DNA of 49,694 nt. Origin: a virus. The position numbers and the translations under genes are program-made. Position 1 is the first letter of the stretch. Every line of letters begins with the position of its first letter. Below the pieces are notes generated by a model. It saw only the letters and a program-made list of their open reading frames with translations, ran no database searches and had not been told where the DNA came from. Location: positions 1 to 49,694 of IMG/VR virus record IMGVR_UViG_3300007734_000950; one strand, given 5' to 3'. Below are positions 9,108 through 27,453 of this stretch, in pieces.

Positions 9108-10544
9108 ATGAAAGAAGGTTATATTCCTCGTGAACAACGAAAAAAGATTCTCCTTATTACTGACGATATTAGAGCTAACTCTGGAGTAGGAGGAATAGGT
9201 AGAGAAATAGTTATTCATACTGCCCATCATTATAATTGGGTGTGTATTGGAGGTTCAATGAATCATCCTGATAAAGGAAAACGATTTGACTTATCTGAAG
9301 ATACTAATAAAAACAATGGTATTGAAGATGCTAGCGTTATTTTATATCCAACAGATGGATATGGAAACCCGGATTTGGTTAGGTTTTTAATTAAAGAAGA
9401 AAAAATTGATGCTATTTTTCTTATAACAGACCCAAGATATTTTGTGTGGTTATTCCAAATGGAAGGAGAAATTAGAAAAAGAATTCCAATTGTTTATTTA
9501 AATATTTGGGATGATTTGCCCGCTCCTATGTACAACAAAGAGTTTTATGAGTCGTGTGATGCGCTATTGGCTATTTCTAAGCAAACACTTAATATTAATA
9601 AAGTAGTATTAGGTGATAAGGCTAAAGGAAAAGTTATTGAGTATCTTCCTCATGGATTAAATAATGATTATTTCTTTACTATTGAAAATAATCATCCTTC
9701 ATACGGTGATTTTACAGCATTTAAAGAACAACTTTTTGGTAAAAAAGAACCTAAATTTGTTACTTTATTTAATTCTAGAAATATACATAGGAAACATCTC
9801 CCGGATGCTATTTTGGCTTGGAGGATATTTTGTGATAAAATAGGTCCTGAAAAAGCAAAGGATTGTGCTTTTGTATTACATACTCAAGCAATAGATGATC
9901 ATGGAACAGATATTCCTGCTGTATTGGATTATTTTTTCCCAAATGATTGTAATGTTTATATTACTAATGGGCATCTTCCTATTAATCAAATGAATTACTT
10001 ATATAATTTAGCAGATATAGGAATGTTATTATCCTCTAATGAAGGATGGGGATTAATGCTTACAGAATGTTTGCTTACTGGTACTCCATTTATAGCAAAC
10101 GTAACTGGAGGTATGCAAGATCAAATGAGATTTGAAAATAAAGAAGGTGAATGGGTTGATTTTGATGAAAACATTCCTTCTAACCATAGAGGTACATATA
10201 AAACCTCAGGAGAATGGGCATTCCCAGTATTTCCTTCTAGTTTATCATTACAAGGATCTGTACCTACTCCTTATATTTTTGATGATAGATGTAAACCCGA
10301 AGATGCTGCTGAACAGTTATTTAAAGCATATAACATGCCTAAAGAAGAACTAAAAGCTAAAGGATTAAAAGGGCAACAGTGGGCATTAAGTGATGAAGCA
10401 GGTTTTACTTCTAAACATCAAGCATCTAGAGTTATATCTTATGTAGATAAATTGTTTTCTACTTGGGCTCCTAGAAAAAAATATGAGCTTGTAGCTGATA
10501 CTGATTATGAAAAAAGAGTTTTAAAACATAAATTAATTTATTAA
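9108..10544 (+). CDS. GT4-type glycosyltransferase (GT-B fold)
   Basis: A protein of 478 residues opening the glycan cluster. The N-terminal Rossmann half has ILLITDDIRANSGVGGIGRE (the glycine-rich acceptor loop). The C-terminal half has LLSSNEGWGLMLTECLLTG followed by GTPFIANVTGG, the E-x7-E donor-sugar motif of retaining GT-B enzymes (family GT4). Donor and acceptor cannot be told. It is six bases from the previous gene and its stop overlaps the start of a second GT-B gene by one base, suggesting that they act in sequence. Confidence 0.88.
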   Translation: MKEGYIPREQRKKILLITDDIRANSGVGGIGREIVIHTAHHYNWVCIGGSMNHPDKGKRFDLSEDTNKNNGIEDASVILYPTDGYGNPDLVRFLIKEEKIDAIFLITDPRYFVWLFQMEGEIRKRIPIVYLNIWDDLPAPMYNKEFYESCDALLAISKQTLNINKVVLGDKAKGKVIEYLPHGLNNDYFFTIENNHPSYGDFTAFKEQLFGKKEPKFVTLFNSRNIHRKHLPDAILAWRIFCDKIGPEKAKDCAFVLHTQAIDDHGTDIPAVLDYFFPNDCNVYITNGHLPINQMNYLYNLADIGMLLSSNEGWGLMLTECLLTGTPFIANVTGGMQDQMRFENKEGEWVDFDENIPSNHRGTYKTSGEWAFPVFPSSLSLQGSVPTPYIFDDRCKPEDAAEQLFKAYNMPKEELKAKGLKGQQWALSDEAGFTSKHQASRVISYVDKLFSTWAPRKKYELVADTDYEKRVLKHKLIY

Positions 10545-11863
10545 TGAAAAATACGTTTGTTATAAGTTGTCCTATTGACACTTACAGCGGGTATGGTGCT
10601 CGCAGTAGAGATTTAGTTAAAGCCATTATAGAAACTAATAAGTATAATGTAAAGGTTTTACCTCAAAGATGGGGAAACACGCCTTTTGGGTTTATAGATG
10701 ATAATCATGAACAATGGGGATTTTTATCTCAACATCTTCTCCCCCAAAACCAACCACTTCAATTCCAACCAGATATTTGGATGCAAATTACAGTTCCTAA
10801 TGAATTTCAATCTATAGGTAAATATAATATTGGAGTAACAGCAGGAATTGAAACTACAATTTGTCATCCTTCATGGATAGAAGGAATAAATCGTATGAAT
10901 TTAACTTTAGTTTCTTCTAATCATGCTAAAAAAGTGTTTCAAGACTGTGTTTTTGAGGTTAAAGATAATAATTCTTCACCGTCACGTACTATAAAATTAG
11001 AAAAACCAATTGAGGTATTATTTGAAGGAGCAGATGATAATGTATATAAAATAATTGAAAAAGAAAAAAATTCTCAAATTATTAACTTAGATTCCATTAA
11101 AGAATCATTCTGTTACCTATTTGTAGGCCACTGGCTCCCAGGCCAATTAGGAGCAGATAGAAAAAATGTAGGATTTTTAATTAAAGCATTTTATGAAACA
11201 TTTAAAAACAAAAAAGATGCTCCAGCTTTAATTTTAAAAACTTCTCAAGTTGGAATTTCATATGTAGATAGAAGAGAAATTCTTCATAGAATTAATCAAA
11301 TTAAAAGTAATATTAAAGCTAATTCTTTACCTAAAATTTATCTACTTCATGGTGAATTTACAGATACAGAGATAAATGAACTGTATAATCATCCTAAAGT
11401 AAAAGCTATGGTTAGTTTAACTAAAGGAGAAGGATTTGGACGCCCATTGCTAGAATTTAGTTTTGTTAATAAACCAATAATCACTAGTAATTGGTCAGGT
11501 CATTTAGATTTTCTTTCTCCTGAATTTACTTCTTTAGTAAATGGGAATTTAGAAAATGTACACCAATCTGCTGCTCAAGAAGGAATTATTTTACCTGAAG
11601 CTCAATGGTTTAATCCCAATTTAACTGAAGTAAATTATCATTTTAAAAATGTATTTGATAATTACAAATCATTTTTAGAATTAGCTAAACGTCAAGGGTA
11701 TAAAAATCGTAAAGAATTTAATTGGGATAAAATGAAAGAAAAACTAGATACATTACTTACTCAATATCTTCCTGATTTTCCAAAACCAGTACAACTCAAA
11801 TTACCACAATTAAAGAAAATTGAATTACCAAAACTTAAAAAAGTAGAAGAAAATGCTGGATAA
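10544..11863 (+). CDS. GT4-type glycosyltransferase (GT-B fold)
   Basis: A protein of 439 residues. The N-terminus contains DTYSGYGARSRDLVKAI, a typical acceptor-side loop. The donor site is at about residues 290-310: LTKGEGFGRPLLEFSFVNKP, again the E-x7-E pattern. The last 35 residues are a low-complexity tail of repeated lysine, leucine and proline (QLKLPQLKKIELPKLKKVEE) that may anchor the enzyme or bind a partner. Donor and acceptor are unknown. Confidence 0.88.
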   Translation: MKNTFVISCPIDTYSGYGARSRDLVKAIIETNKYNVKVLPQRWGNTPFGFIDDNHEQWGFLSQHLLPQNQPLQFQPDIWMQITVPNEFQSIGKYNIGVTAGIETTICHPSWIEGINRMNLTLVSSNHAKKVFQDCVFEVKDNNSSPSRTIKLEKPIEVLFEGADDNVYKIIEKEKNSQIINLDSIKESFCYLFVGHWLPGQLGADRKNVGFLIKAFYETFKNKKDAPALILKTSQVGISYVDRREILHRINQIKSNIKANSLPKIYLLHGEFTDTEINELYNHPKVKAMVSLTKGEGFGRPLLEFSFVNKPIITSNWSGHLDFLSPEFTSLVNGNLENVHQSAAQEGIILPEAQWFNPNLTEVNYHFKNVFDNYKSFLELAKRQGYKNRKEFNWDKMKEKLDTLLTQYLPDFPKPVQLKLPQLKKIELPKLKKVEENAG

Positions 11864-12329
11864 TTTAGTTATTTGTGATAAATGTGGCTCAAATGCTTGT
11901 TATCACACCCAAATTACTACTGCTGATCCTAATAATCCAACAATTAATTCATATTGGTGTTATGGATGTGGGTTTACCTCTAATGACCTACTAACAGAAG
12001 GATCAGAATATTATACAATGCAAACTGAATTGTTTCCTGAATTGTATAAAGATTTAATTCAAAAAGATTTAAAAGATAAATGTTGGATTCCTTCTAATAT
12101 AAATCTCCCTGAAAAAGGAATGGTGTTTATTGATGGAACAGGAATAGATAACTGGCAATGGGCTGGAGTAAAAGCAATTGAAATAAATGAAGAAGAAAAA
12201 GCAAAGTATCCTATCCCTAATAAAAAAGGTGAATTTTATAAATGGAGAATGGATATGACTACTTTAAAATACTTTGGTCAAGAAGGATATATGGACGCTT
12301 TAGAGTATATAGGCTTGTTTTCTGAGTAA
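11853..12329 (+). CDS. Zinc-ribbon protein, unknown function
   Basis: A protein of 158 residues overlapping the previous gene by 11 bases. The N-terminus has a four-cysteine zinc ribbon, CDKCGSNAC near residue 8 and CYGCGF near residue 36. The rest is acidic and aromatic-rich (WIPSNINLP, WQWAGVKAI). Lies between glycosyltransferase genes but no catalytic motif is visible. Confidence 0.75.
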   Translation: MLDNLVICDKCGSNACYHTQITTADPNNPTINSYWCYGCGFTSNDLLTEGSEYYTMQTELFPELYKDLIQKDLKDKCWIPSNINLPEKGMVFIDGTGIDNWQWAGVKAIEINEEEKAKYPIPNKKGEFYKWRMDMTTLKYFGQEGYMDALEYIGLFSE

Positions 12330-12345: not shown

Positions 12346-12350
12346 CAAAT

Positions 12351-12974
12351 ATGAAAATTAGTTATGCTATTACAGTTTGTAATGAACTAGAAGAAATCAA
12401 ACGTTTAGTTCCGTTTCTTCATAAACGTAAACGTCCTGAAGATGAAATTTGTGTTTTACTGGATAAGCCAAAAGCGTCTCAATCATTATTAGATATACTT
12501 TATTGGTGGTCATCAAATAATTGGATTATCTTAAAAGAAAGTGCATTCCAAGGACATTTCGCTGATTGGAAAAATGAGTTAACTAGAATGTGTTCTGGTG
12601 ATTACATTTTTCAAATTGATGCTGATGAAATTCCTCATATCAACCTAATACAAAATCTACCAGCGTTACTAGAAGAAAATCAATTGATTGATATGATCAG
12701 AGTACCTAGAGTTAATACTGTAGAAGGATTAACTGAGGAACATATACATCGTTGGGGATGGAATGTAAATGAAAGAGGATGGGTAAACTGGGCAGATTGG
12801 CAAACGCGTATTTATAAAAATACTCCTGATATAAAATGGAAAAATAAAGTTCATGAAGTTTTAGATGGATTTAAAACACACGGGATGCTTCCTATAGAAG
12901 AAGAGTGGGCTTTATATCATCCTAAAACAATAGAACGTCAAGAAAAACAAAACAATTATTATAATACATTATAA
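12351..12974 (+). CDS. GT2-like glycosyltransferase (GT-A fold)
   Basis: A compact GT-A protein of 207 residues. ISYAITVCNELEEIKRLV is the family opening; the metal-binding DxD region is FQIDADEIPH near residue 92. A C-terminal WKNKVHEVLDGF segment resembles the acceptor side of GT2 enzymes that work on lipopolysaccharide-type cores. Its stop overlaps the next ATG (TAATG), coupling it to the nucleotidyltransferase. Confidence 0.85.
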   Translation: MKISYAITVCNELEEIKRLVPFLHKRKRPEDEICVLLDKPKASQSLLDILYWWSSNNWIILKESAFQGHFADWKNELTRMCSGDYIFQIDADEIPHINLIQNLPALLEENQLIDMIRVPRVNTVEGLTEEHIHRWGWNVNERGWVNWADWQTRIYKNTPDIKWKNKVHEVLDGFKTHGMLPIEEEWALYHPKTIERQEKQNNYYNTL

Positions 12975-13360
12975 TGAGAGTATGGGTTAATGGTTCTTTT
13001 GATGTTGTTCATATAGGGCATATAAAATTATTAGAATATGCTTTCTCTTTAGGTGAAGTTATAGTTGGTATAGACTCAGATAAAAGAATTAAACAATTAA
13101 AAGGTAACACTAGGCCATTTAATTCTGAGCAAGATAGACTTGATTTTCTCTCTAGTATTAAATACATTAGTAGAGTTAGTGTATTCAATTCAGATGAAGA
13201 ATTAATTAATTTAATACAATTGTTTCAACCTGATTATATGGTCATAGGAAGTGATTACAAAAATAAACCTATTATAGGATCAGAATATATAGGTAAAATA
13301 TTGTATTTTGATAGAATAAAAAACAAATCAACAACCGAAATTTTAAATTATGAAAAATAG
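12974..13360 (+). CDS. Nucleotidyltransferase, HldE C-terminal / TagD-like
   Basis: A protein of 128 residues, the size of a single cytidylyltransferase-like domain. The nucleotide-binding motif HIGH is at residues 13-16 (GSFDVVHIGH). The C-terminal KSTTEIL resembles the STT-x-I segment of HldE/RfaE. A kinase resembling the other half of HldE lies at 25831, so the pair could make ADP-heptose from heptose 7-phosphate. A glycerol-3-phosphate cytidylyltransferase (TagD) is the main alternative. No separate heptose-bisphosphate phosphatase or isomerase is seen. Confidence 0.85.
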   Translation: MRVWVNGSFDVVHIGHIKLLEYAFSLGEVIVGIDSDKRIKQLKGNTRPFNSEQDRLDFLSSIKYISRVSVFNSDEELINLIQLFQPDYMVIGSDYKNKPIIGSEYIGKILYFDRIKNKSTTEILNYEK

Positions 13361-13766
13361 AAAGTATCTACCAACATTAAGTGAATTGATAGACAGATTA
13401 TCAATTGTGCAATTAAAAGAAGTATTCATCCCAGAACATAAAGATGAATATGCTAAAGAAATAGCTGATATAGTTTATGATATCCAAGCCCACATTAATG
13501 AAAACAAATCAGAAATTACGGCTGAAACAATTCGTGCTATTGTGGTTTTAAGTCAAATGAATTTACATATTTGGCATAATGAATCTAATTATCGTAAAGG
13601 TATTAAGGACGGTAATAATCTTGAATTAACTCACGGATTAAATGGTATTCGTAATACTGCTAAAAATAAAATACAAGAAGTAGTTGGTGGTCGTAAAGAT
13701 TATAAAATTGATTGTTTAGCAGCTGAATTTAAAGATTGGGAAATATCATGGGGAAAAAATTTATAA
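13350..13766 (+). CDS. Hypothetical protein of the glycan cluster
   Basis: A mainly helical protein of 138 residues overlapping the previous gene by 11 bases. It reads TLSELIDRLSIVQLKEVFIP at the start and has LHIWHNESNYRKGIKDGN in the middle. Small proteins with a similar opening occur in glycan clusters, from memory, but I cannot name the family. The tight coupling to sugar genes suggests an accessory role. Confidence 0.7.
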   Translation: MKNRKYLPTLSELIDRLSIVQLKEVFIPEHKDEYAKEIADIVYDIQAHINENKSEITAETIRAIVVLSQMNLHIWHNESNYRKGIKDGNNLELTHGLNGIRNTAKNKIQEVVGGRKDYKIDCLAAEFKDWEISWGKNL

Positions 13767-13780
13767 AAACAAATAAAAAT

Positions 13781-14002
13781 ATGGAACAAAGTTATCCAAA
13801 TATGAAGTCAACTGTTACCACTCAAGGTGAAGTAGTTACTCAAATTATTCATTTTGTAGGAGGAGTTAAAAGAACATACCATAGTATAATATCATCTTCA
13901 ATAAAACAAGGACAATTCACTAAATTTAAATGTGTTGATGGTAGTATGGTTATGATTAATGATATTAATGTTTTGTGCATAGAAGTTTTTACCGAAAAAT
14001 AA
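13781..14002 (+). CDS. Hypothetical small protein
   Basis: A protein of 73 residues. I prefer ATG 13781 (MEQSYPNMKSTV), 14 bases after the previous stop, over the in-frame TTG 13736 or ATG 13748 that overlap it. The sequence alternates strands (VTTQGEVVTQIIHFVGGVKR, then FKCVDGSMVMINDINVLCIE), suggesting a small beta-barrel. No function assigned. Confidence 0.6.
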   Translation: MEQSYPNMKSTVTTQGEVVTQIIHFVGGVKRTYHSIISSSIKQGQFTKFKCVDGSMVMINDINVLCIEVFTEK

Positions 14003-14009
14003 TAAAATT

Positions 14010-14513
14010 ATGATTATAGGTAACGGCAGCATAGCTACAGTACTCCCAGATAAAGATGATATAGTATTCTTTGCTTCAGGTGTTAGCAATAGTTCTTGTA
14101 TTGATGAAAAAGAATATGAAAGAGAATTTAATCTTCTTAAAACTGTCCCTATAAATAAACATATAGTCTATTTTTCTAATCTAGGAATTTACTATAAAAA
14201 AGATAGATATACTCAACATAAAATTGATATTGAAGAATACATTCGAAACCATTATTTAAGTTATACTATTGTTAGAATAGAAGTATGTGAATGGGTAAAA
14301 ACTCCTCATACTATATTAAATGTGTTTAAATCTCAATTAAGTAAAGGTATTGAGCCTATTATTCAAGATACAACTAGATATGTTTTAAGTTTGTCTGAAT
14401 TTTTGTATTGGATAAACTTAATTCAACCTGGTGTAAAAAATGAAATGAATATTTTGGGTAGAAAATTAACTATAGCTCAAATTGTTGATGAAATAAAACA
14501 AGGTAAAATATGA
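14010..14513 (+). CDS. NAD-dependent epimerase-like protein
   Basis: A protein of 167 residues. It opens with a truncated dinucleotide-binding signature (MIIGNGSIATVL) and the FFASGVSNSS strand-turn, followed by EYEREFNLLKTV. The pattern recalls short SDR-like proteins of O-antigen clusters, about half the normal epimerase length, and no YxxxK catalytic pair is evident. The stop overlaps the next gene by four bases. Confidence 0.65.
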   Translation: MIIGNGSIATVLPDKDDIVFFASGVSNSSCIDEKEYEREFNLLKTVPINKHIVYFSNLGIYYKKDRYTQHKIDIEEYIRNHYLSYTIVRIEVCEWVKTPHTILNVFKSQLSKGIEPIIQDTTRYVLSLSEFLYWINLIQPGVKNEMNILGRKLTIAQIVDEIKQGKI

Positions 14514-15430
14514 CACGGGTTAAAATATTTTATTTGATAATGCCTTGGCAAATAGATTATGCATTATTATCATATACACAATTTAAAAAATCTAAATATT
14601 ATTTGAAAGATGATGTTGAAATAACTATTGATACACACCTTAATCTTTCTAGTTATATAACTGATTGGAATAAAAGTAAATTACCCAAAGAGTTTTTTAT
14701 TAAAAAATATAATGATTTAGCTGTTCTTCTTAAAGACTATAAACATAACTCTATCATATATGATGGGGAAGAAAATTATGGTCTTTTAGATATGCAAAAA
14801 ATAGCATACGGAAAAGAATTTGACTACTACATACCAGTATGTCCAGACATGTATTTTAGTGAACACCTTCTTTTTTCATTAATAGAATCAGCTAAATTAG
14901 TACAAAATAAATATTTTGTTATAACTCCTGAGATACATAAAATGTGGGATTACACTTGGGATGAAATTACTAATAAAGAATACATGGGTATTCCTTATAA
15001 AAGTTGGAATGAAACTGATATTTTTGATATTAGGTACAATTTAAAAGCATCTAATAGTGATTTATATTTAGAACCTACTCAAAAAAGCAAATGGGCCATC
15101 TGGTTTGACCTATACAATAAAGCATTTTATGAAAACCTATGCCCAGTACATGATGATTGGGTAGGATATGGTCCTTGGGATTGGTATTCCAATATGCTTT
15201 CAGAGCATGTTAAAAATCTTGGAGTTGATTTTCAACAATATGTTTTAAGAGGACAAACTATTTTTGAATATTCTATTGGACCTTGGAAAGATAGAGACAT
15301 TACTAGTTCTTATAAAGATTTTTTAAAAATTAAAGTAGGAGCTAAAGAACAAAGAGAAAAATTTGAATCTAAAATGCAAGAATATTTAAATAAAGGATTT
15401 CAAATGGTTAAAGAAAAAAATATATTATGA
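14510..15430 (+). CDS. Putative glycan-modifying enzyme, unknown family
   Basis: A protein of 306 residues rich in aromatic residues. DYYIPVCPDMYFSEHLLFSL and VHDDWVGYGPWDWYSNM are the most distinctive segments; the latter resembles sites near the acceptor region of GT-A enzymes, but no clear DxD with a preceding strand can be assigned. It overlaps both neighbours by four bases and is therefore part of the same glycan pathway. I treat glycosyltransferase as the leading guess only. Confidence 0.6.
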   Translation: MTRVKIFYLIMPWQIDYALLSYTQFKKSKYYLKDDVEITIDTHLNLSSYITDWNKSKLPKEFFIKKYNDLAVLLKDYKHNSIIYDGEENYGLLDMQKIAYGKEFDYYIPVCPDMYFSEHLLFSLIESAKLVQNKYFVITPEIHKMWDYTWDEITNKEYMGIPYKSWNETDIFDIRYNLKASNSDLYLEPTQKSKWAIWFDLYNKAFYENLCPVHDDWVGYGPWDWYSNMLSEHVKNLGVDFQQYVLRGQTIFEYSIGPWKDRDITSSYKDFLKIKVGAKEQREKFESKMQEYLNKGFQMVKEKNIL

Positions 15431-16317
15431 AGATATTTTCAAATTTTAGAAATTCTGAAACAGACCCATATTTAACTTTTATTAGACAAAAATATGAGAA
15501 TAAACCAATTACTTTTTGGTATGACAAATTCCCTGATAATATTTCTCAATTAAACATTAATCCATATAATATTTTATTTTTACATGAACCTAATGAATTT
15601 TTTGGGTTTTCTTCTTATGCTATACAACACCATCATTTATATACAGCTATACTATCATGGGATCAAAATTTGTTAGATAATTGTTTTAATGGAATTAAAT
15701 TTACTTACAATGGGTGTACTTTAGATTTAGATTATATAGAACAAATAAAAGATAAAGAAAAACAATTTAAAACTAGTTTTTTATGTGGTACTAAAAATTT
15801 AATAGAAGGACACAAATTAAGACATGAAATTTTTTCTTTAAAAAATCAACTCACAACCCCTAATGATTGGTACTATGTTCTAGAAGATTTTGACCATAAC
15901 AATAATGTCAGACCTGGATATGAAGGATACAGTAAAGATTTATCACATATTCCACCTGGAGTAGATATTATAGGATATGGGCGTAGAGTTTTGTTTGAAC
16001 AATGTATGTTTAATGTTGTTGTAGAAAATGTTAATCATTTAAACTGGTATAATAAAATCGGAGATAATTTTTTAACTAAAACTATCCCTATTTACTGGGG
16101 GTGCTCTAACATAAGTGATTTTGGTTATGATGAAAGAGGAATAATAAAATTCAACTCTTCAGAGGAATTATTGTACATTGTAAATAATTTAACTTCTAAT
16201 GATTATTATGATAGATTACCGTATATCAATTATAATTATGAATTAGCTAAATTAGATACTTTTGAAAATAATATAAGCCAATTTTTTGATGAATTTATTA
16301 AACTAAATAACCTATGA
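15427..16317 (+). CDS. GT10-like (fucosyltransferase-type) glycosyltransferase
   Basis: A protein of 296 residues. The C-terminal half carries the GT10 signature: FNVVVENVNHLNWYNKIGD followed by FLTKTIPIYWGCSNI, corresponding to the EN...TEKI...PIYWG region that binds the nucleotide-fucose donor. The usual TEK is altered to GDN. The cluster also has a GDP-mannose-dehydratase-like gene, which would supply GDP-deoxyhexoses. A GDP-6-deoxysugar other than fucose is possible. Confidence 0.78.
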   Translation: MKIFSNFRNSETDPYLTFIRQKYENKPITFWYDKFPDNISQLNINPYNILFLHEPNEFFGFSSYAIQHHHLYTAILSWDQNLLDNCFNGIKFTYNGCTLDLDYIEQIKDKEKQFKTSFLCGTKNLIEGHKLRHEIFSLKNQLTTPNDWYYVLEDFDHNNNVRPGYEGYSKDLSHIPPGVDIIGYGRRVLFEQCMFNVVVENVNHLNWYNKIGDNFLTKTIPIYWGCSNISDFGYDERGIIKFNSSEELLYIVNNLTSNDYYDRLPYINYNYELAKLDTFENNISQFFDEFIKLNNL

Positions 16318-16805
16318 TTTTCCCCGAAGTAAAAACCTACCAACCAGATTCATTTGAAGACTATAGAGGTGAATTATATACTTTATACAAACAAGAAGAT
16401 TTTAATTTAGTTTTTAATCATGATAAGGTATCTATATCAAGAAAAAATGTTTTAAGAGGATTACATGGTGATGATAAATCCTGGAAGTTAATTTCTTGTT
16501 TAGCAGGTGAGGTATATTTAGTTGTAGTTGATTATAGACCTGAGTCTCCTAATTATTTAAAATGGGATTCGATTATTTTAACATGTAAAAATAAAAAATC
16601 AATTTTAATTCCTCCAAGATTTGCTAATGGTCATCTTGTATTAAGCAATAAAGCTACATTTTTTTATAAATGGTCTTATTTAGGAGAATATCCTGATGTT
16701 AAAGATCAATTTACTTTAAAATGGGATGATCCTAATATAGGGATTGACTGGCCTATTTTAAATCCTATTATGTCTAAAAGAGATAAATTTGGTCATTTTA
16801 AATAA
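16314..16805 (+). CDS. RmlC-like sugar 3,5-epimerase (cupin)
   Basis: A protein of 163 residues overlapping the previous gene by four bases; typical RmlC is about 180. Family segments are clear: EDYRGELYTLY, the catalytic-His strand ISRKNVLRGLHG (His51), and IPPRFANGHLVLS. The end IGIDWPI is also characteristic. RmlC inverts C3 and C5 of dTDP-4-keto-6-deoxyglucose, but no dTDP-glucose synthase or dehydratase is seen here, so the real substrate may be another 4-keto sugar. Confidence 0.88.
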   Translation: MIFPEVKTYQPDSFEDYRGELYTLYKQEDFNLVFNHDKVSISRKNVLRGLHGDDKSWKLISCLAGEVYLVVVDYRPESPNYLKWDSIILTCKNKKSILIPPRFANGHLVLSNKATFFYKWSYLGEYPDVKDQFTLKWDDPNIGIDWPILNPIMSKRDKFGHFK

Positions 16806-17741: not shown

Positions 17742-17744
17742 AAT

Positions 17745-19892: not shown

Positions 19893-20519
19893 ATGAAAAT
19901 TCCTCAACATTATCAAAAAGTTAGAGATGTTAAGACAACACCTCAAGAACTTATAGCTTTTGAAGACAAAGTAAAAGAAGCTTATGAAGCTGGAAAAATA
20001 AAAGGACCCATTCATCTATCCAAAAACAATGAAGATCACCTAATTGATCTATTCCAGTACATTCATCCTGATGATTGGGTTTTATCTGCTTGGAGAAACC
20101 ACTACCATGCTTTACTCCATGGAGTTAATCCTGATAAATTATTTGAATGGATTAGTGAAGGAAGAAGTATGGGGACTAATAATATAAAACCTAATTTTTA
20201 TGCTTCTTCTATTGTAGGAGGAATTATTCCTATCTCTTTAGGAGTAGCTATGGGACTTAAAAGAAAAAATTCACCTAGACGAGTTTGGTGTTTTATAGGT
20301 GATATGACTATGGAAACAGGAATATTCTATGAAGCATATAAGTATTCTCAAAACTTTAATTTGCCTTTACAATTTGTAGTTGAAGACAATAACTTAAGTG
20401 TCCACACACCTACAGATGTAGCTTGGGGTAAACGAATGAAAGCCCCAGAAAATGTAATTTATTATTCATACAAAATGTCTTATCCCCATCACGGAACAGG
20501 TAAATGGGTTAATTTTTAA
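19893..20519 (+). CDS. TPP-dependent enzyme, pyrophosphate-binding (E1 alpha-like) subunit
   Basis: A protein of 208 residues corresponding to one transketolase/E1 alpha diphosphate-binding domain. The thiamine-diphosphate motif is GDMTMETG ... EDNNLSV, a variant of GDG-x(~25)-NN with Met in place of the third Gly. The companion gene at 20530 supplies the pyrimidine-binding domain. In this setting, next to a ColD-like dehydratase, it could transfer a carbon unit to a keto-dideoxysugar, as in branched-sugar pathways; this is inferred. Confidence 0.85.
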   Translation: MKIPQHYQKVRDVKTTPQELIAFEDKVKEAYEAGKIKGPIHLSKNNEDHLIDLFQYIHPDDWVLSAWRNHYHALLHGVNPDKLFEWISEGRSMGTNNIKPNFYASSIVGGIIPISLGVAMGLKRKNSPRRVWCFIGDMTMETGIFYEAYKYSQNFNLPLQFVVEDNNLSVHTPTDVAWGKRMKAPENVIYYSYKMSYPHHGTGKWVNF

Positions 20520-20529
20520 AATTAAAATT

Positions 20530-21066
20530 ATGAAATACTTTGACGAATTAAAAAGAGCAATGGAATGGTTAGGAACTAAACCTAACACAGTATTTACAGG
20601 TCAAGCAATAGGTTTTAGTGGACATGCTATTTCAAATACAATGGCTAATGTACCTCAAGATAAAAGAATAGAATTACCTGTTTTTGAAGAATTACAATTA
20701 GGGATAGCTACTGGTATGGCTTTAGAAGGTTGGGTGCCGGTTACATGTTATCCTCGATTTGATTTTTTTATTTTAGGATTAAATCAATTGGTTAACCATT
20801 TAGATAAAATGCAAGATATGTCTAAAGGAGATATGAAACCAAAAGCTATTATTCGAGTAGCAGTTGGCTCTAAAGTCCCATTCAGTGCTGGTCCTCAACA
20901 TACTCAAAACCATACTGAAGCAATTAGGCAAATGCTAACCGAAGTAGAAGTAGTTGAATTAACAGAACCAGACCAGATTTTCGAAGCATTTAAAACAGCA
21001 TATGAACGTGAAGACGGAAAATCAACATTAATTATTGAACATAGTGAATATTATGGAACAAAATAG
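20530..21066 (+). CDS. TPP-dependent enzyme, pyrimidine-binding (E1 beta-like) subunit
   Basis: A protein of 178 residues, only the Pyr domain; the C-terminal transketolase domain found in normal E1 beta or transketolase is missing. The conserved Glu of the Pyr domain is in ELPVFEELQLGIATGMA, and VPFSAGPQHTQNHTEA is a typical transketolase loop. With the preceding gene it would form a minimal alpha2beta2 TPP enzyme. Confidence 0.85.
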   Translation: MKYFDELKRAMEWLGTKPNTVFTGQAIGFSGHAISNTMANVPQDKRIELPVFEELQLGIATGMALEGWVPVTCYPRFDFFILGLNQLVNHLDKMQDMSKGDMKPKAIIRVAVGSKVPFSAGPQHTQNHTEAIRQMLTEVEVVELTEPDQIFEAFKTAYEREDGKSTLIIEHSEYYGTK

Positions 21067-22225
21067 TTTTAATTGGCCTTTAATAAATGACAACGTTACT
21101 CCCTCAGATAGAAAAGTATTATCTGATTTTATTTTAAGTGGAGAAAGACTTACAAATGGTCCTAAAGTAAAAGAATTTGAAAAACTTTGGTCTAACTGGC
21201 TAGGAGTTAAACATAGTGTTATGGTTAATTCTGGGGCTTCTGCTAATTATATTTCTATTGCTATGGTTAAAGAATTACTTGGCGAAGGAGAAATTATAGT
21301 ACCCCCATTAGGATGGGTTTCAGACATTTCATCCGTAGTTCAACTAGGAATGACCCCGGTATTTGTAGATATTAGTATGAATAATTTAGCTATAACAGCT
21401 GAGAATATTAAAAATGCTATTACTTCAAAAACAAAAGCAATTGTTTTAGTTCATTGTTTAGGATTTAACGGTTTAACAGATGAAATTGTATCTATAGCTA
21501 AACAACATAATTTAATATTAATTGAAGATTGTTGTGAATCACATGGTGCTGTTTTTAAAGATCAAAAAATAGGTACATATGGAGATATTTCTTTATTTTC
21601 ATTTTATTTTGGTCATCATATTACTACAGTTGAAGGTGGTACTATATGTGTAAATGATGATAAATTATATGATTTAGCTAAACTATTTCGTTCCCATGGT
21701 ATGACTCGAGAAGCATCCCAAGAATTACAAACCGAATATCAAACCAAATATCCTCATTTAAATCCACTTTTTACGTTTGCTGTAGCAGGATTTAACATGC
21801 GCAGTACAGAAATTAATGCCGTATTAGGTATTGAGCAAATGAAACGTATAGATTACAACATCCAAAAACGTACTGATAATTTAAATGTTTGGTTAGATAA
21901 TCTTAATAGAAGCAAATTTATGGTTGATTTTAACACTAAAGGAAGTAGTAATTTTGCTTTACCTTTAGTATTACAAGCATCACAAATAGATAAATTAAAA
22001 GATATATGTAATATTCTTGAACAAGAAAAAGTTGAATATAGATTAGGAACAGCAGGAGGTGGTAATCAAGCATTACAACCTTATTTAAAGAAATTTCCCC
22101 ACAGAATAGAGGGTATTTTATCTATTGCTAATTATATTCATTCTAATGCATTATATATAGGAAATCATCCTGAATTAACCAAAGAACAAATTATTAATCT
22201 GTGTAAAAAATTAAATAATGTTTAA
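21053..22225 (+). CDS. PLP-dependent sugar 3-dehydratase, ColD/RfbH-like (His in place of Lys)
   Basis: A protein of 390 residues from ATG 21053 (a TTG at 21035 is also in frame). The fold is DegT/DnrJ/EryC1, with cofactor Asp159 in LIEDCCESHG. At the place where aminotransferases carry the PLP-binding Lys (SFxxxKxxxxGEGG), this protein reads FYFGHHITTVEGG, with His188-His189. A His here is diagnostic of ColD and RfbH, which remove the 3-hydroxyl of 4-keto-6-deoxysugars rather than transaminate. With the GDP-mannose-dehydratase-like gene at 24824, the likely product is a GDP-4-keto-3,6-dideoxyhexose. Confidence 0.9.
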   Translation: MEQNSFNWPLINDNVTPSDRKVLSDFILSGERLTNGPKVKEFEKLWSNWLGVKHSVMVNSGASANYISIAMVKELLGEGEIIVPPLGWVSDISSVVQLGMTPVFVDISMNNLAITAENIKNAITSKTKAIVLVHCLGFNGLTDEIVSIAKQHNLILIEDCCESHGAVFKDQKIGTYGDISLFSFYFGHHITTVEGGTICVNDDKLYDLAKLFRSHGMTREASQELQTEYQTKYPHLNPLFTFAVAGFNMRSTEINAVLGIEQMKRIDYNIQKRTDNLNVWLDNLNRSKFMVDFNTKGSSNFALPLVLQASQIDKLKDICNILEQEKVEYRLGTAGGGNQALQPYLKKFPHRIEGILSIANYIHSNALYIGNHPELTKEQIINLCKKLNNV

Positions 22226-23189
22226 ATATCAAAAAGTTTTAGTTACCGGGGGTGGGGGCATGATTGGCCGCTCTTTAGTAAAATTCCTTTTAGAACGAGG
22301 AGCAAATATTACAATAGCTGATTTAACTACACCTACTGATCTACCCCATGGGGTTAAATTTATTAAAGTAGACTTACGTTACTTTGATCAATGTGAAGCA
22401 ATTTGTAACGGAATGGATTATGTATTTAATCTAGTAGGTATTAAAGGCTCACCCAAAATGTGTGCAGAACAACCAGCAGATTTTATGGTACCTATGCTCC
22501 AGTTTAATACTAATATGATGGAAGCCGCTCGCAGAGCAAATGTAAAATGGTATTTATACACTAGTTCAGTTGGAGTATATGCACCTGCTGAAGTATTTAA
22601 AGAAGATGATGTATTAAATACTGTTCCTTCTCCAAATGATAAATTTGCAGGTTGGGCTAAACGAATGGGAGAAATGCAAGCCGAAGCTTACTCAATCCAG
22701 TATGGATGGAATAAAGTATCTATTGTTAGACCTGCTAATGTTTACGGGGCTTATGATAATTTTAACCCAGCTAACGCTATGGTTATTCCTTCATTAATTA
22801 GAAAGGCCCAAGAAAACGAAGTATTAGAAGTATGGGGTGATGGATCAACAATTAGAGATTTTATTCATGCTGATGATGTTGCTTTAGGAATGATATTTGC
22901 AGTTGAAAACCAAATTACTCAACCTATAAATTTAGGTTCAGGCGAAGGATATTCTATTAAAGAAGTAGTAGATATGGTAGTAAAATATGCTAATAAACCT
23001 TTAGAAGTAAAATGGTTAACAGATAAACCTGCTGGGGATAAAATTCGTTTATTTGATATGACTCGAGCTAAAAATTATGGATTTAATACTTTAATATCAC
23101 TAGAAGAAGGAATTAAAAGAACTACTGAATGGTTTTTAAATAATAAGGAAATTTTAGATAAACGCTATAATGCTTTTGTAAATCACTAA
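22218..23189 (+). CDS. NAD-dependent sugar epimerase/dehydratase (extended SDR)
   Basis: A protein of 323 residues. The cofactor motif VTGGGGMIGRSL opens the chain, and SIVRPANVYGAYDNF and VWGDGSTIRDFIHADD are typical of extended SDR sugar enzymes. The catalytic helix reads DKFAGWAKRMGE: the Lys is present but the Tyr expected four residues before it is Ala. This may define a subfamily or an altered chemistry. It overlaps the dehydratase gene by eight bases. Confidence 0.88.
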   Translation: MFKYQKVLVTGGGGMIGRSLVKFLLERGANITIADLTTPTDLPHGVKFIKVDLRYFDQCEAICNGMDYVFNLVGIKGSPKMCAEQPADFMVPMLQFNTNMMEAARRANVKWYLYTSSVGVYAPAEVFKEDDVLNTVPSPNDKFAGWAKRMGEMQAEAYSIQYGWNKVSIVRPANVYGAYDNFNPANAMVIPSLIRKAQENEVLEVWGDGSTIRDFIHADDVALGMIFAVENQITQPINLGSGEGYSIKEVVDMVVKYANKPLEVKWLTDKPAGDKIRLFDMTRAKNYGFNTLISLEEGIKRTTEWFLNNKEILDKRYNAFVNH

Positions 23190-23878
23190 TGGAAAAATTT
23201 TTAATAACCGGGATAGGGAGTGGGTTAGGTAAATACCTTTATAGTAATATTCCTAATGCTGTTGGGTTAAATAGAAATAACTTTACAGAAATAAAAACTC
23301 AAAGTTATGATACAATTGTGCACTGTGCTTTTAATAAAGAAAATGATATAACTGATTATAAAAAATATTTAGATGACAATATATTTTTAACCCAACGATT
23401 AAAAGCATTAAACTATAAAAAATTTATTTATATATCTACTATAGATATCTACCAGGATTTTTGTAATTCATATATTCAATTTAAAAAATTCTCTGAATCA
23501 ATGTTAGAGGATAATGATTTAATATTGCGATGCTCTATGATGTTAGGGGATACTATGAAACCTAATCATATTACTAAAATTAAAAGCAATATTGATTCTA
23601 TATCCCTATCAGAAGAATCAACTTTTAATTATATATTAATGGATAGTTTAGTTGAATTTTTTGTTAGTCAAGATTACCAGCATTATAATGGAGTACTTGA
23701 CTTTGTCTCTAACACAGAAATTAAATTAAAAAAAGTAAAAGAATATTTTAATTCATCTACATTATTAGGAGAATATGTTTATAAAAGTAATTTGGATTTT
23801 TATAATCCTATTTTTATATTAGATAAAAAATATAGTAAATCATCATTTGAAAATTTAAGACAATATTATGAAAAGTAA
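23189..23878 (+). CDS. Short NAD-dependent epimerase-like protein (SDR)
   Basis: A protein of 229 residues. LITGIGSGLGKYLYSN is the nucleotide-binding loop; IYISTIDIYQ and the following YIQFKKFSESML give a YxxxK pair (Tyr, then Lys four later). It is shorter than a standard extended SDR, with a reduced C-terminal substrate domain. Likely a keto-reductase of the sugar pathway. Its ATG overlaps the preceding stop by one base. Confidence 0.82.
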   Translation: MEKFLITGIGSGLGKYLYSNIPNAVGLNRNNFTEIKTQSYDTIVHCAFNKENDITDYKKYLDDNIFLTQRLKALNYKKFIYISTIDIYQDFCNSYIQFKKFSESMLEDNDLILRCSMMLGDTMKPNHITKIKSNIDSISLSEESTFNYILMDSLVEFFVSQDYQHYNGVLDFVSNTEIKLKKVKEYFNSSTLLGEYVYKSNLDFYNPIFILDKKYSKSSFENLRQYYEK

Positions 23879-24827
23879 TTTTTTTAAGGATAAAAAAGTA
23901 GTAGTTACAGGAGGCTCAGGATTTATTGGCACTCATTATATTTTAGAATTATTAGAAAGAGGAGCTAAGGTTAAAACTCATACCCATGAAAAACCACTTC
24001 AGATACAAGATGATAGAATTGAAATTGTAGAAAATATTGATCTAACTAATTTGGATGATTGTTTTAAACTTATAGATGGAGCTGATTATGTTATACATTC
24101 TGGAGGGAAAATTGCTCACCCATCAACTGTCCCAACTGATATCCAAATATCAATGCAAAATATTATGGTATTAGGAAATGTATTAGAGGCTTCTTATAAA
24201 TCTAATGTTAAAAGATTTTTAGACTTAAATAGCTCAACAGGCTACCCAGACATTAGAAGACCATTAACTGAAGATGAATTTTGGGTAGATGAACCATATA
24301 AATCTTACTTTGGATATGGCTGGATGAGACGATATAGAGAAAAGTTAATGGAGCATGTTTCTAAATTCTCAAAAATGGAAATAGCTCTAGCCCGTGGAAC
24401 TGCAATTTATGGACCAAATGATAATTTTGATCCTAAAACATGCCATGTAGTACCGGCTTTAATTAAAAGAGTATTAGATGGTGAAGACCCATTTATTGTT
24501 TGGGGCACTGCAGACGTAGTTAGAGATTTTTTATATGTTAAAGATGTAGTAAAAGCAGCATTGTTAGTATTAGAAAAAGGTGAATCTATGAGACCTTATA
24601 ATGTTGGTTCTGGGGTAGCAATTACTGTTGGGGATATTGTTAATGCTATTTTAAAAGCCACCAATAAAACCCCAGAAGTAATTTATGATGCCTCAAAACC
24701 AACAACAATTCCATTTAGAATGGTTAGTACAGAAAGATTAAATAATGAATTAGGATTTACACCTGACTATACATTTGAAGAAGGCATTAAAGAAACAGTT
24801 GAATGGTATATTAAAAATAAAATATGA
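23868..24827 (+). CDS. NAD-dependent sugar epimerase/dehydratase (extended SDR)
   Basis: A protein of 319 residues. VVVTGGSGFIGTHYIL is the cofactor loop, and ARGTAIYGPNDNFDP and VWGTADVVRDFLYVKD are family landmarks. In the catalytic helix, YFGYGWMRRYRE, Tyr is kept but the Lys four residues later is Arg. It is a near paralogue of the 22218 product, suggesting duplication and divergence for successive steps. Overlaps the preceding gene by 11 bases and the next by four. Confidence 0.88.
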   Translation: MKSNFFKDKKVVVTGGSGFIGTHYILELLERGAKVKTHTHEKPLQIQDDRIEIVENIDLTNLDDCFKLIDGADYVIHSGGKIAHPSTVPTDIQISMQNIMVLGNVLEASYKSNVKRFLDLNSSTGYPDIRRPLTEDEFWVDEPYKSYFGYGWMRRYREKLMEHVSKFSKMEIALARGTAIYGPNDNFDPKTCHVVPALIKRVLDGEDPFIVWGTADVVRDFLYVKDVVKAALLVLEKGESMRPYNVGSGVAITVGDIVNAILKATNKTPEVIYDASKPTTIPFRMVSTERLNNELGFTPDYTFEEGIKETVEWYIKNKI

Positions 24828-25834
24828 ATAGAGTACTAATTACAGGCATTACGGGGATGGTAGGGTCACACTTGGCTGATTACCTCCTAAAAAATACAGA
24901 TTGGAAAATCTATGGTTTAACCCGATGGAATGATTCATTAGAAAATATTGAACATTTGGTTGAAGAAATAAATAAAAAAGAACGAATTGAACTCGTTTAT
25001 GGTGATTTAAATGATTTAGCATCACTAAATGTTGCAGTAAACAAATCTAAGCCTAATTATGTATTCCATTTAGCTGCTCAATCTTACCCCCAAACTAGTT
25101 TTGATTCACCAATTGAAACACTTCAAACAAATATTTTAGGAACAACTAACTTATTAGAAGCTTTAAGGTACTCAAATTATAAAAATGCAATAATTCATGT
25201 TTGTGCTTCAAGTGAAGTTTTTGGTAGAGTACCTAAAGAAAAACTTCCAATCAATGAAGAATGTTCATTCCATCCTGCATCACCATATGCTATATCTAAA
25301 GTAGGGACAGACTTAGTAGGTAGATATTATGCCGAAGCATATGGAATGACTATTATGACTACTAGAATGTTTACTCATACTGGCCCAAGAAGAGGAGATG
25401 TATTTTCAGAATCAACATTTGCTAAACAAATAGCTATGATTGAAGCAGGGTTGCAAGAACCTAAAATTTATGTTGGAAATTTAGAATCATTAAGAACATA
25501 TGCTGATGTAAGAGATGCAGTTAATGCTTATTACATGCTAGTTACTATTAATCCTACATCTGGTGAGTATTATAATATAGGAGGTACCTATACTTGTAAA
25601 ATTAGTGATATGCTTAATTATTTAATTAGCCAATCAACAGTTAAAAATATTGAAATAATAATAGACCCAGAACGCTTGAGACCAATTGATGCTGATTTGC
25701 AAATACCAAATTGTGATAAATTTAAAAACCACACAGGATGGGAACCTAAAATTTCATTTGAAACAACAATGGATGATTTATTAAATTATTGGAGAGATAA
25801 AATTAAATCTGGACGTAAATTTTTAAGACGATGA
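24824..25834 (+). CDS. GDP-mannose 4,6-dehydratase-like enzyme
   Basis: A protein of 336 residues (Gmd is about 350). Diagnostic segments: LITGITGMVGSHLADYLL, the active-site ASSEVFG, YAISKVGTDLVGRYY with the YxxxK pair, TRMFTHTGPRRGD, and LRPIDADLQIP near the end, which is typical of GDP-mannose dehydratases. Converts GDP-mannose to GDP-4-keto-6-deoxymannose, the substrate for a ColD-type dehydratase and for GDP-fucose synthesis. Confidence 0.88.
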   Translation: MNRVLITGITGMVGSHLADYLLKNTDWKIYGLTRWNDSLENIEHLVEEINKKERIELVYGDLNDLASLNVAVNKSKPNYVFHLAAQSYPQTSFDSPIETLQTNILGTTNLLEALRYSNYKNAIIHVCASSEVFGRVPKEKLPINEECSFHPASPYAISKVGTDLVGRYYAEAYGMTIMTTRMFTHTGPRRGDVFSESTFAKQIAMIEAGLQEPKIYVGNLESLRTYADVRDAVNAYYMLVTINPTSGEYYNIGGTYTCKISDMLNYLISQSTVKNIEIIIDPERLRPIDADLQIPNCDKFKNHTGWEPKISFETTMDDLLNYWRDKIKSGRKFLRR

Positions 25835-26571
25835 AAATATTAGTTATAGGAGATAAATGTGATGATGTATTTCGTTATGGGGAAGTAAATAGATTAGCCC
25901 CCGAAGCACCTATCCCCATTATTATACCCGAAAGAGAAACCTCTAACCCAGGAATGGCAGGAAATGTAGTACGAAATTTAGAAGTATTAGGTGCTGAGGT
26001 GGAATTTATTCATAATCATTACCCAATTAGAAAAATTAGATATGTTTGTTCAAAATATAATCATTTACTTTTACGAGTTGATGAAAATGATAAATGTGAA
26101 AATATTAGTGAATATTATGATTTAACTCCTCTAAAATGGGAGCAATATGATGCTGTTGTGATTAGTGATTACTGCAAAGGGTTTCTGAATGAAGATGATA
26201 TTGAATATATTTCTTCAAAGCATCCCTTAACATTTTTAGATAGTAAAAAACTATTAGGAAATTGGGCACATAATATTAGTTTTATTAAAATTAACTATAA
26301 TGAATATGAAAAAAATAAAAATGTTTTTTTAATAGATAATATACTTAAAAACAAAACAATTACTACTAGAGGAAAATATGGATGTGATTATCAAAACAAA
26401 AATTACCCCACTAAAGAAGTACCAGTAAAAGATGTTTCTGGAGCAGGGGACACATTCCTTGCAGGGTTAGTAGTAGAATATATTAAATCAAAAAATATAG
26501 AGTCTGCTATTAATTTTGCTCAAGAATGCACTACCATTGTTGTCCAGAAATTAGGAGTATCAACAATTTAG
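25831..26571 (+). CDS. PfkB-type sugar kinase, HldE N-terminal-like
   Basis: A protein of 246 residues, shorter than the HldE kinase domain (about 320) but with its hallmarks: RLAPEAPIPIIIPERE, NPGMAGNVVRNLEVLGAEV, LLRVDEND, SDYCKG and the catalytic DVSGAGDTFLAG with the base Asp. The end VVQKLGVSTI also matches HldE. It would phosphorylate heptose 7-phosphate at C1; the nucleotidyltransferase partner is at 12974, 12 kb away. Other hexose or pentose phosphates remain possible. Confidence 0.85.
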   Translation: MKILVIGDKCDDVFRYGEVNRLAPEAPIPIIIPERETSNPGMAGNVVRNLEVLGAEVEFIHNHYPIRKIRYVCSKYNHLLLRVDENDKCENISEYYDLTPLKWEQYDAVVISDYCKGFLNEDDIEYISSKHPLTFLDSKKLLGNWAHNISFIKINYNEYEKNKNVFLIDNILKNKTITTRGKYGCDYQNKNYPTKEVPVKDVSGAGDTFLAGLVVEYIKSKNIESAINFAQECTTIVVQKLGVSTI

Positions 26572-26595
26572 TAATAAAAAATAAATAATATAATA

Positions 26596-27453
26596 ATGGA
26601 AACAACAGCCGTGTTATTAAATTGCCGAAATGACGGTTATAAAGAGGATGATAGATTTATAGTTTGTATTAATTCTATGTTAGAAACATTTGATGAAGTA
26701 TGGTACTGTGATTGGAATTCCCCTTCTGATAAAGGATCTATGTTATGGAAATTAAAAGATTATATCCCCAAGACTGGTAAAATTAGACATTTTGTAATAG
26801 ACCCAGCTACAACAGATTTATTAACAGGGCATGATCCTAGAATAGGAGATTTTTCCTATATTATTCCTCAAAATATATTACTTCGAAGATGTAAAGCGGA
26901 TTGGATTGTAAGTTCGGCTATAGACATTATTGCTCCTAAAAAAGAATATTTGGATAATTTTTTATCTAAAGCAAATAAGAATACTTTTTACTCAATTTCA
27001 AGGCGTGATGTTGAATATGAAGATTTAGAAAAAATAGGATTTGATAAATGGAGAGAATTTAGAGATAAAATGGATAAAACATCCCAACCCAGAATATTCC
27101 CAACCAAAGTTACTCCTAATGATGAATATAGTCTAATTAATTGTTGTGGTGATTTTCAAACAGCACATAGAGATGTTTGGAATAAAATAAAAGGATTTGA
27201 AGAGCAAATGATATATGCTTGTTTTCAAGATACTAATATACAGAAAAAAGCAGTTTTAAATGGATATAATTTAGAAGCTCATTTTAATTTACCCTTATAT
27301 CATATGTCTCATAAAGGTATGGGAAATGACGGATCATCTCCTTCAAAACAACACTACAATGACGCGTGGAAATGGGTAGAATTTTTTACAGAATCTGAAA
27401 ATGACGAAAATTGGGGGTTAGCTAGTACTGAAATTGAATTTGAGATTATTTAA
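26596..27453 (+). CDS. GT-A glycosyltransferase-like protein
   Basis: A protein of 285 residues. The N-terminus AVLLNCRNDGYKEDDRFIVC resembles GT2 openings; ADWIVSSAIDIIAP occupies the metal-binding position (a degenerate DxD). The NCCGDFQTAHRDVWNKIKGF segment with FQDTNIQKKAVLNGY matches the C-terminal part of galactosyltransferase-like GT-A proteins. Last gene of the glycan cluster. Confidence 0.75.
   Translation: METTAVLLNCRNDGYKEDDRFIVCINSMLETFDEVWYCDWNSPSDKGSMLWKLKDYIPKTGKIRHFVIDPATTDLLTGHDPRIGDFSYIIPQNILLRRCKADWIVSSAIDIIAPKKEYLDNFLSKANKNTFYSISRRDVEYEDLEKIGFDKWREFRDKMDKTSQPRIFPTKVTPNDEYSLINCCGDFQTAHRDVWNKIKGFEEQMIYACFQDTNIQKKAVLNGYNLEAHFNLPLYHMSHKGMGNDGSSPSKQHYNDAWKWVEFFTESENDENWGLASTEIEFEII

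Follow-up and report, generated by a model that had tools for sequence, protein, structure and literature searches.

Large clusters of sugar genes in T4-like phages are already known. The cyanophage 'LPS' (lipopolysaccharide) clusters of S-SM2, P-TIM68 and S-CAM7 hold about 20 sugar genes, those of P-SSM2 and S-SSM7 are also known from print, and passages of the literature describe such clusters as possible 'stuffer DNA' (PMC3037559) or as modifiers of the host surface (PMC7824862). Here, we describe an 18-kb sugar cluster at positions 9108-27453 of the IMG/VR virus record IMGVR_UViG_3300007734_000950, which was analyzed over its entire length of 49,694 bases and is referred to below as the window. 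The cluster lies within a phage genome, in a fixed slot whose interior is freely exchanged in an immuto-like phage lineage, much like a serotype locus. We propose that it is a phage-borne, serotype-like glycan locus carrying a cassette for a C-branched 3,6-dideoxyheptose that is built onto a virion protein, a reading whose chances we put at about even.

The cluster consists of 24 open reading frames (ORFs, g01 to g24), all on the plus strand, and 99.3% of it is coding; the longest open frame on the minus strand has 89 codons. ORFs overlap at 16 of the 23 junctions, which bears out the picture of about 20 packed sugar genes with overlapping starts given by a first-pass annotation of the window. 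The same annotation called the scale unusual for a phage, and here it was mistaken, since S-SM2, P-TIM68 and the related loci described below (10-24 kb) are comparable and passages of PMC7824862 and PMC3037559 present published cyanophage clusters. The window resembles these as a T4-like phage with a large cluster of sugar genes. S-SM2 and P-TIM68 encode a thiamine pyrophosphate (TPP) protein 43-45% identical to g16, together with a kinase and nucleotidyltransferases, and S-CAM7 has a trio of gmd, GDP-fucose synthetase and a ColD-like gene. The cyanophage clusters differ in genome position, in host and in having the E1 alpha and beta parts of the TPP enzyme fused in one protein. A picocyanobacterial phage is not what the window looks like: its closest synteny is with a Flavobacterium phage, it has a CHU_C type IX signal and its GroEL is nearest to that of immuto.

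That cultured phage, Flavobacterium phage vB_FspM_immuto (Immutovirus; recorded host Flavobacterium sp. LMO8), has the same slot, with a nuclease, two glycosyltransferases (GTs), a small protein, a GT2 enzyme, sugar genes, a second GT2 enzyme (family F14), a DksA-like protein and an HNH protein in that order; the last two are annotated as a DnaK-suppressor protein and an HNH endonuclease, and its polymerase as family A. The contents differ, as 0 of 25 interior families are in common with the window and immuto carries WecE-type aminotransferases and no heptose or TPP module.

To collect further loci, we scanned viral contigs with g17 (best 80 of 107 relatives) and with the clamp loader (best 80 of 594 relatives) and added regions of longer contigs. 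Thirty-five loci were tried, two lacked a border and 33 were used; they include the window and immuto, and L016 and L018 are copies and others near-duplicates. The same slot is thus found in immuto and in 31 other phage loci besides the window, with a nuclease-to-HNH span of 10-24 kb in the related loci. At the 5' border stands a PD-(D/E)XK exonuclease (7920..8855; PF12705, E 6e-23; PHROG exonuclease), present in 31 of the 33 loci. It is followed by a conserved block of two GT4 glycosyltransferases, g01 (9108..10544; PF00534; 32 loci) and g02 (10544..11863; PF00534; 32 loci), a small protein with a possible zinc ribbon, g03 (11853..12329; weak PF01096, E 0.004; 33 loci), and a GT2 glycosyltransferase, g04 (12351..12974; PF00535, E 1.6e-7; 33 loci). 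The 3' border (28421..29393) is formed by a DksA/TraR-type zinc-finger protein (d3, 32 loci) and an HNH endonuclease-like protein (d4), both scoring under the Pfam cut-offs. Some of the absences at the borders and in the 5' block are cut ends. Just inside the 3' border is a transferase slot, filled by g24 (26596..27453) in 16 loci and by the GT2 family F14 in 15; two loci have neither and none has both.

Between these fixed points the gene content changes freely. Counted over the whole loci, there are 170 protein families, of which 69 occur in more than one locus. Over 495 pairs of loci, sharing of interior families does not follow backbone identity (Spearman -0.016, p 0.73), where the backbone is the exonuclease, g01 and g02 and, the pairs being non-independent, p-values are descriptive. 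L173 and L176, with a backbone identity of 88.8%, have 0 of 20 interior families in common, and the window and G008, at 62.3%, have 17 of 19. The same holds for a set of 21 loci made up of the window and those obtained with the clamp-loader sample (G008 and G032 among them were also g17 hits): their 210 pairs give a Spearman value of -0.09 (p 0.17), 73 pairs share nothing, and 6 of the 18 pairs with a backbone identity of at least 80% share no interior family. In each of the 15 of 18 listed g17-selected loci that had backbone values, the median cassette identity (74-86%) is higher than that of the backbone (53-65%, each figure resting on one to three genes), a gap to which differing gene rates contribute; the decoupling over 495 pairs is the stronger evidence. 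A fixed slot, a conserved 5' block, a 3' GT slot and a freely exchanged interior, all in an immuto-like phage lineage, are what we mean by a serotype-like locus.

Two irregularities were seen among the related loci. In L032, L033 and L034, g16, g17 and g20 lie between GroEL and the exonuclease, ahead of g01-g03, perhaps at a second insertion site. In L087 and L093, the polymerase homolog is matched as two separate pieces, perhaps because of an insertion or an intein.

The first-pass annotation allowed the glycan to sit either on virions or on the host envelope. We favor soluble, cytosolic assembly on a virion protein because the phage loci contain no recognizable flippase, polymerase or exporter typical of a bacterial O-antigen or capsule locus. 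Counting as multi-span any ORF of at least 150 amino acids with at least three Kyte-Doolittle segments, we found no such protein among 707 ORFs of the 33 bordered loci or 1917 ORFs of the 80 viral g17 loci; in control bacterial loci there were 69 among 1378 ORFs, in 42 of 80 loci. When single segments were counted, 7 of the 707 ORFs passed, none convincingly. As in viruses with glycosylated virions, transferases are encoded by the virus itself (g01, g02, g04 and g10). The best profile match of g01 is glycosyltransferase B736L (3oy2, E 7e-11), which we take to be a chlorovirus protein, and a 2023 study by Freeman is said to have found glycans on mycobacteriophage virions. In chloroviruses, the capsid glycans are the work of enzymes that the virus encodes, and a conserved core carries variable additions as in our loci (PMC7826918); PMC12619734 cites, in one passage, glycans on the capsid and tail tube of mycobacteriophages. 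Compared with such viruses, sugar genes are more widely exchanged in the loci studied here, and attachment to the virion is predicted from the genes.

Alternatively, the cluster may remodel the LPS or capsule of the host during infection and so block superinfection, working through the host's lipid carrier and flippase. This has been proposed for cyanophage and jumbo-phage clusters (passages of PMC7824862), and the same TPP and ColD-type genes occur in the bacterial loci, 42 of 80 of which do have multi-span proteins. The complete lack of proteins with at least three predicted spans in both phage samples speaks against it, and a conserved block of cytosolic transferases would better fit a phage-coded acceptor, so that we place envelope remodeling on the unlikely side.

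The sugar itself can be predicted from the central genes. The best match of g22 (24824..25834) is 7us5, a GDP-D-glycero-D-manno-heptose 4,6-dehydratase, at 361 bits; the next solved protein reaches 201 bits and the GDP-mannose 4,6-dehydratase 1db3 only 145. For g11 (16314..16805), an RmlC-fold protein resembling GDP-4-keto-heptose C3/C5-epimerases, the eight best PDB matches are epimerases of the heptose-pathway type (150-161 bits), followed by RmlC at 95 bits; three of the eight (7ang, 7an4 and 7ani) were deposited as RmlC-like and are taken as DdahB/MlghB-type by score and length. By these matches, both proteins are closer to the enzymes that handle GDP-heptose for Campylobacter capsules than to those of hexose pathways, and a hexose pathway to yersiniose or colitose, our first reading, was replaced accordingly by a heptose one. 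In the same cluster, g18 (21035..22225) is by sequence a pyridoxal phosphate (PLP) 3-dehydrase of the DegT family, nearest to ColD (2gms, E 1e-54), in which His replaces the Lys of aminotransferases. The residue altered in the ColD mutant entries, which we take to be His188, is kept in g18.

These are steps of a described pathway. In Campylobacter jejuni HS:5, GDP-3,6-dideoxyheptose is made by a 4,6-dehydratase, a PLP-dependent C3-dehydratase, a C5-epimerase and a C4-reductase, according to passages of PMC10440746. By sequence, g22, the His-type g18 and the RmlC-fold g11 would supply the first three, and the window shares a GDP-fucose-synthase-like short-chain dehydrogenase/reductase (SDR) with the HS:5 and HS:11 pathway as described in the same passages. 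Neither of the candidates for the last step, g19 (22218..23189; 1bsv, 115 bits) and g21 (23868..24827; 1bws, 112 bits), has the Ser-Tyr-Lys set of a C4-reductase by column counts. The catalytic Tyr column is Ala in g19 (48 homologs: Ala 37, Tyr 10, Gly 1), and g21 keeps the Tyr with Arg in the Lys column (42 homologs: Tyr-Arg 19, Val-Lys 16, Tyr-Lys 6, Ala-Lys 1). MlghC of C. jejuni has Phe in place of the catalytic Tyr (PMC7949155). In both phage proteins (22218-24827), and in many of their phage homologs, one residue of the Tyr-Lys pair is missing; the two proteins may act as a pair. The window differs from HS:5 and HS:11 in these incomplete SDRs, in an added TPP enzyme and in an HldE-like kinase and nucleotidyltransferase; the C. 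jejuni pathway serves a bacterial capsule, and the window belongs to a phage without export genes.

The added enzyme is encoded by g16 (19893..20519; PF00676, E 5e-15; PDB matches to pyruvate dehydrogenase (PDH) E1 alpha) and g17 (20530..21066; PF02779, E 1.7e-10), compact relatives of the PDH E1 alpha and beta subunits that adjoin g18; g17 lacks the transketolase C domain, as seen in a 22-sequence alignment. A PDH-alpha-like and beta-like pair beside ketosugar enzymes is the arrangement of E1-type sugar-branching systems. A strict TPP motif pattern (GD-x ... NN) matched 46 of 80 g16 homologs, with GDM rather than GDG in 45, and missed the other 34; cofactor binding by g16 is likely from its sequence. 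At 19893-21066 the alpha and beta parts are separate genes, but they match one longer protein in S-SM2 and P-TIM68 (compare L003 and L004).

The link between TPP enzyme and dehydrase extends well beyond the window. From 186 loci, we took 100 g18 homologs of at least 300 amino acids, read the key residue by alignment column and called TPP-near those within four ORFs of a TPP enzyme. All 70 TPP-near proteins have His; the remainder are 23 with His and seven with Lys. The partners of the 70 are the E1 pair or one of its subunits in 63 cases (not independent, since the g17 scan selects E1 loci and the count includes loci that overlap or are near-copies), an acetolactate synthase (ALS)/YerE superfamily protein in six and a split transketolase in one; example ALS and transketolase proteins were confirmed in Pfam, and L171, cut at its transketolase gene, was scored as having no TPP enzyme. 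In 80 bacterial loci found through an E1-beta alignment, 40 g18 homologs are His and TPP-near, 8 His and far, 2 Lys and near, and 4 Lys and far. Two variants were seen: the g18 homolog of L010 is matched as two pieces, perhaps through a frameshift, and L049 (7864-9408) and L055 (7861-9408) have a B12-binding radical SAM protein (by Pfam, for the L049 copy) beside another type of E1 pair.

Passages of a 2025 review (PMC12247030) name three thiamine diphosphate enzyme superfamilies that accept ketones, all tied to sugar branching: YerE-like decarboxylases, transketolases and alpha-ketoacid dehydrogenases 2. Passages of PMC4425429 and PMC4753412 propose that the E1 type puts a two-carbon unit onto C4 in avilamycin and paulomycin. 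AviB1/B2 and Pau11/12, of the E1 type, and YerE of yersiniose synthesis are a PDH-like pair or an ALS-type enzyme serving a 4-keto sugar (PMC4425429, PMC4753412, PMC12247030); the window differs from them in being a phage, in its shortened beta subunit and in its predicted heptose acceptor. Because the same three TPP classes are known or proposed to branch sugars, we predict C2 addition at C4 of a 3,6-dideoxy-4-keto-heptose, and g18 with g22/g11 and g16/g17 would together yield a C-branched 3,6-dideoxyheptose.

In the pathway that we envisage, a GDP-linked heptose would be 4,6-dehydrated by g22 and then lose its C3 hydroxyl through the ColD-type g18, and g11 may epimerize it at C5. The split TPP enzyme would add a two-carbon unit to the 4-keto group, as in yersiniose or avilamycin branching, and the SDRs g19 and g21 would finish a C-branched 3,6-dideoxyheptose of nine carbons. 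The GT10-type g10 and its neighbors would transfer the sugar, g14 and g15 would decorate it, and the enzymes of the conserved block would assemble the glycan on a virion protein within the cytoplasm. A swap of the interior would then alter the virion coat, and hence interactions with hosts, competitors or grazers. A fuller version, in which this is a true serotype locus where a constant transferase core and exchangeable cassettes give each phage its own virion glycan, with three TPP classes recruited and the nine-carbon branched 3,6-dideoxyheptose as the product here, we advance more tentatively.

Co-occurrence and phylogeny bear on how general this cassette is. Among the 80 viral g17 loci, g18 homologs occur in 71, g11 in 60, g06 in 49, g10 in 48, g23 in 44, g19 in 42, g22 in 27 and g05 in 23; among 80 bacterial g17 loci, the counts are 49 for g18, 36 for g19, 26 for g22, 16 for g11 and 0 for each of g23, g05, g10 and g06. 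The phage versions therefore have accessory genes in common that are missing from the bacterial ones, and not every locus has the full heptose set. A tree was made of g17 sequences, 61 from phages and 63 from bacteria. The sequence of the window falls in an all-phage clade of 29 (support 95/91), itself within a group (100/99) that also holds 17 sequences from Pelagibacteraceae, Chloroflexota and gammaproteobacteria rather than from Bacteroidota; another clade joins 20 phage sequences with one labeled Bacteroidales. The starred branches require a minimum of three changes of label, so the module moved between bacteria and phages several times. The closest relative of the window's g17 is viral (94%) and its best bacterial match is at 58%, and it appears to have been phage-borne for long.

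Several points weigh against a branched heptose on a virion protein. The product, acceptor, activity and function of the cluster are all read from genes. A g22-like gene occurs in only 27 of the 80 viral g17 loci and a g11-like one in 60, and even these counts are inflated, as the loci were chosen for the module and include near-duplicates. The step of g19 and g21 is unclear, both being without a complete Tyr-Lys pair, and if one of them were the C4-reductase it would compete with branching. The E1 pair has no C-terminal transketolase domain, and the bacterial His rule is strong but not absolute, with 2 exceptions among 42 TPP-near proteins. The absence of an exporter is possibly compatible with use of the host's flippase. 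Finally, g23 (25831..26571; TIGR02198, E 2e-37), an HldE-type heptose-7-phosphate kinase-like protein, and g05 (12974..13360; TIGR02199, E 4e-29), like HldE-domain-II nucleotidyltransferases, both under the family cut-offs, resemble the ADP-heptose (HldE) branch and not the HddA/HddC branch that leads to GDP-heptose in C. jejuni. None of the supply genes gmhA, hddA and hddC was recognized among the 24 ORFs, nor did family searches of these recognize a sedoheptulose-7-phosphate isomerase or a phosphatase. Some of the route must therefore come from the host, unless the nucleotide is a different one. The first-pass annotation's pathway to a specific decorated glycan is upheld; its term 'near-complete' was too strong.

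The chemistry may also be simpler: the cluster would make the ordinary GDP-3,6-dideoxyheptose known from C. jejuni HS:5, and g16 and g17 would act elsewhere, for instance in sugar-phosphate supply. With g22, g18, g11 and a GDP-fucose-synthase-like SDR the window has the HS:5 set, and the fused cyanophage TPP protein lies near genes for a heptose kinase and a phosphoheptose isomerase. Yet g16, g17 and g18 adjoin in most viral g17 loci, and the replacement of the E1 pair by other TPP classes beside His-type dehydrases points to a shared ketosugar step; we regard an unbranched product as unlikely.

Improbable in our view is that the glycosyltransferases modify phage DNA, placing sugars on hydroxymethylated bases for protection from nucleases. 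The locus does stand among replication genes, adjoining the exonuclease, clamp loader and polymerase, and phage glycosyltransferases reportedly hypermodify DNA with glycans (Pyle, 2024). The only protein of the thymidylate synthase (TS) family in the window, however, keeps the Asn that we take to mark a true thymidylate synthase, and the relative G021 (160,798 bases, of unknown completeness) has the GT4 pair in the slot and no TS-family gene. No TS-family base hydroxymethylase was thus seen in the window fragment or in G021; TET-type routes were not searched for. An assembly chimera or host island, suggested by gene content like that of bacterial polysaccharide clusters and named in the first-pass annotation as what would refute its reading, is itself refuted almost beyond doubt by junctions that recur unchanged in a cultured phage and in many independent phage contigs, by uniform composition and by the all-phage clade of g17.

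As far as the literature was searched, two things are new: in immuto-like phages, a hypervariable slot that is fixed in place and has a conserved block of transferases, and the branched 3,6-dideoxyheptose that we predict. Neither a C-branched dideoxyheptose nor this locus was the subject of any paper found, which is no proof of absence.

The remaining genes of the cluster are mostly transferases and modifying enzymes. The small proteins g06, g07 and g08 (13350..14513; g08 is an NAD-binding-like fragment) occur in 11, 8 and 7 of the 33 loci, and, with g03 and the short SDR-like g20 (23189..23878; PF01370 at E 0.023 only), gave no confident assignment in family searches. For g09 (14510..15430) and g24, PDB profile searches gave no useful match. 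The AlphaFold2 model of g09 (predicted local distance difference test, pLDDT, 93.5) suggests a GT-A-fold glycosyltransferase, its best Foldseek matches, LARGE1 and COLGALT1, being remote (E ~1e-7, TM ~0.4), and that of g24 (pLDDT 75), likewise of predicted GT-A fold, matches K4CP, SpsA and GalNAc-T. With g10 (15427..16317; 2nzw alpha1,3-fucosyltransferase, E 8e-11), of the GT10 family, which uses GDP-sugars, the cluster has transferases of several folds, as first noted: two of GT4 and one each of GT2 and GT10, besides g09 and g24. Its sugar activation and modification genes also hold up (HldE-type g23 and g05, RmlC-type g11, SDRs g19, g21 and g22, DegT-family g18 and the TPP pair). One of two methyltransferases proposed earlier, the FkbM-type g14 (18626..19261; PF05050, E 7e-12), passes its family cut-off, and g12 is weak (PF02390, E 0.046); likewise, one of two 2-oxoglutarate (2OG) oxygenases, g15 (19230..19853; PF13640, E 2.6e-11), passes, and g13 has no Pfam match and a motif seen by eye only (g12 and g13, 16824..18632). 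PHROGs searches of 10 cluster proteins gave generic names for five and nothing for the other five.

Upstream of the cluster lie the C-terminus of a phage DNA polymerase, GroES/GroEL, a gp44-like clamp loader and the exonuclease, and downstream an endolysin-like protein, a thymidylate synthase and four tRNAs; GC content per 2-kb window is 24-36%, with no step at the cluster ends. The GroES and GroEL genes adjoin (3952-5872), and GroEL is kept next to the clamp loader in most related loci. Three labels were corrected using Pfam: GroES (Cpn10) is at 3952-4251 and not at 5887-6147, the thymidylate synthase is PF00303 (ThyA-type) and not ThyX, and a gp32-like label (phrog_624) at 48811-49290 was dropped for Pyr_excise. 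Directly past the 3' border, 29850-31384 is sparse in ORFs of at least 80 amino acids. HYR-like, GH16, PKD, CHU_C type IX secretion and subtilase domains at 35418-45649 may belong to structural proteins or to secreted proteins of the host surface. The host is probably a member of the Bacteroidota, given the PKD, GH16, subtilase and CHU_C type IX domains and a GroEL that shares 60.8% identity with the immuto protein. A DNA search of positions 1-24900 for near relatives among phages gave no match, and a search of 20530-28500 for distant relatives found no more than short pieces in five Synechococcus phage records.

What purpose large sugar clusters serve in phages is an old question, to which our proposal gives an answer that is concrete and can be tested, and a cultured phage with the same slot means that the acceptor can be sought directly. 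If the proposal is true, the compact E1 pair would represent a new and small type of carboligase for ketosugars. Should virions carry glycans specific to their cassettes, these phages would have serotypes swapped by recombination, which bears on host recognition and competition: related viruses could exchange one sugar coat for another, as bacteria do when they switch serotype.

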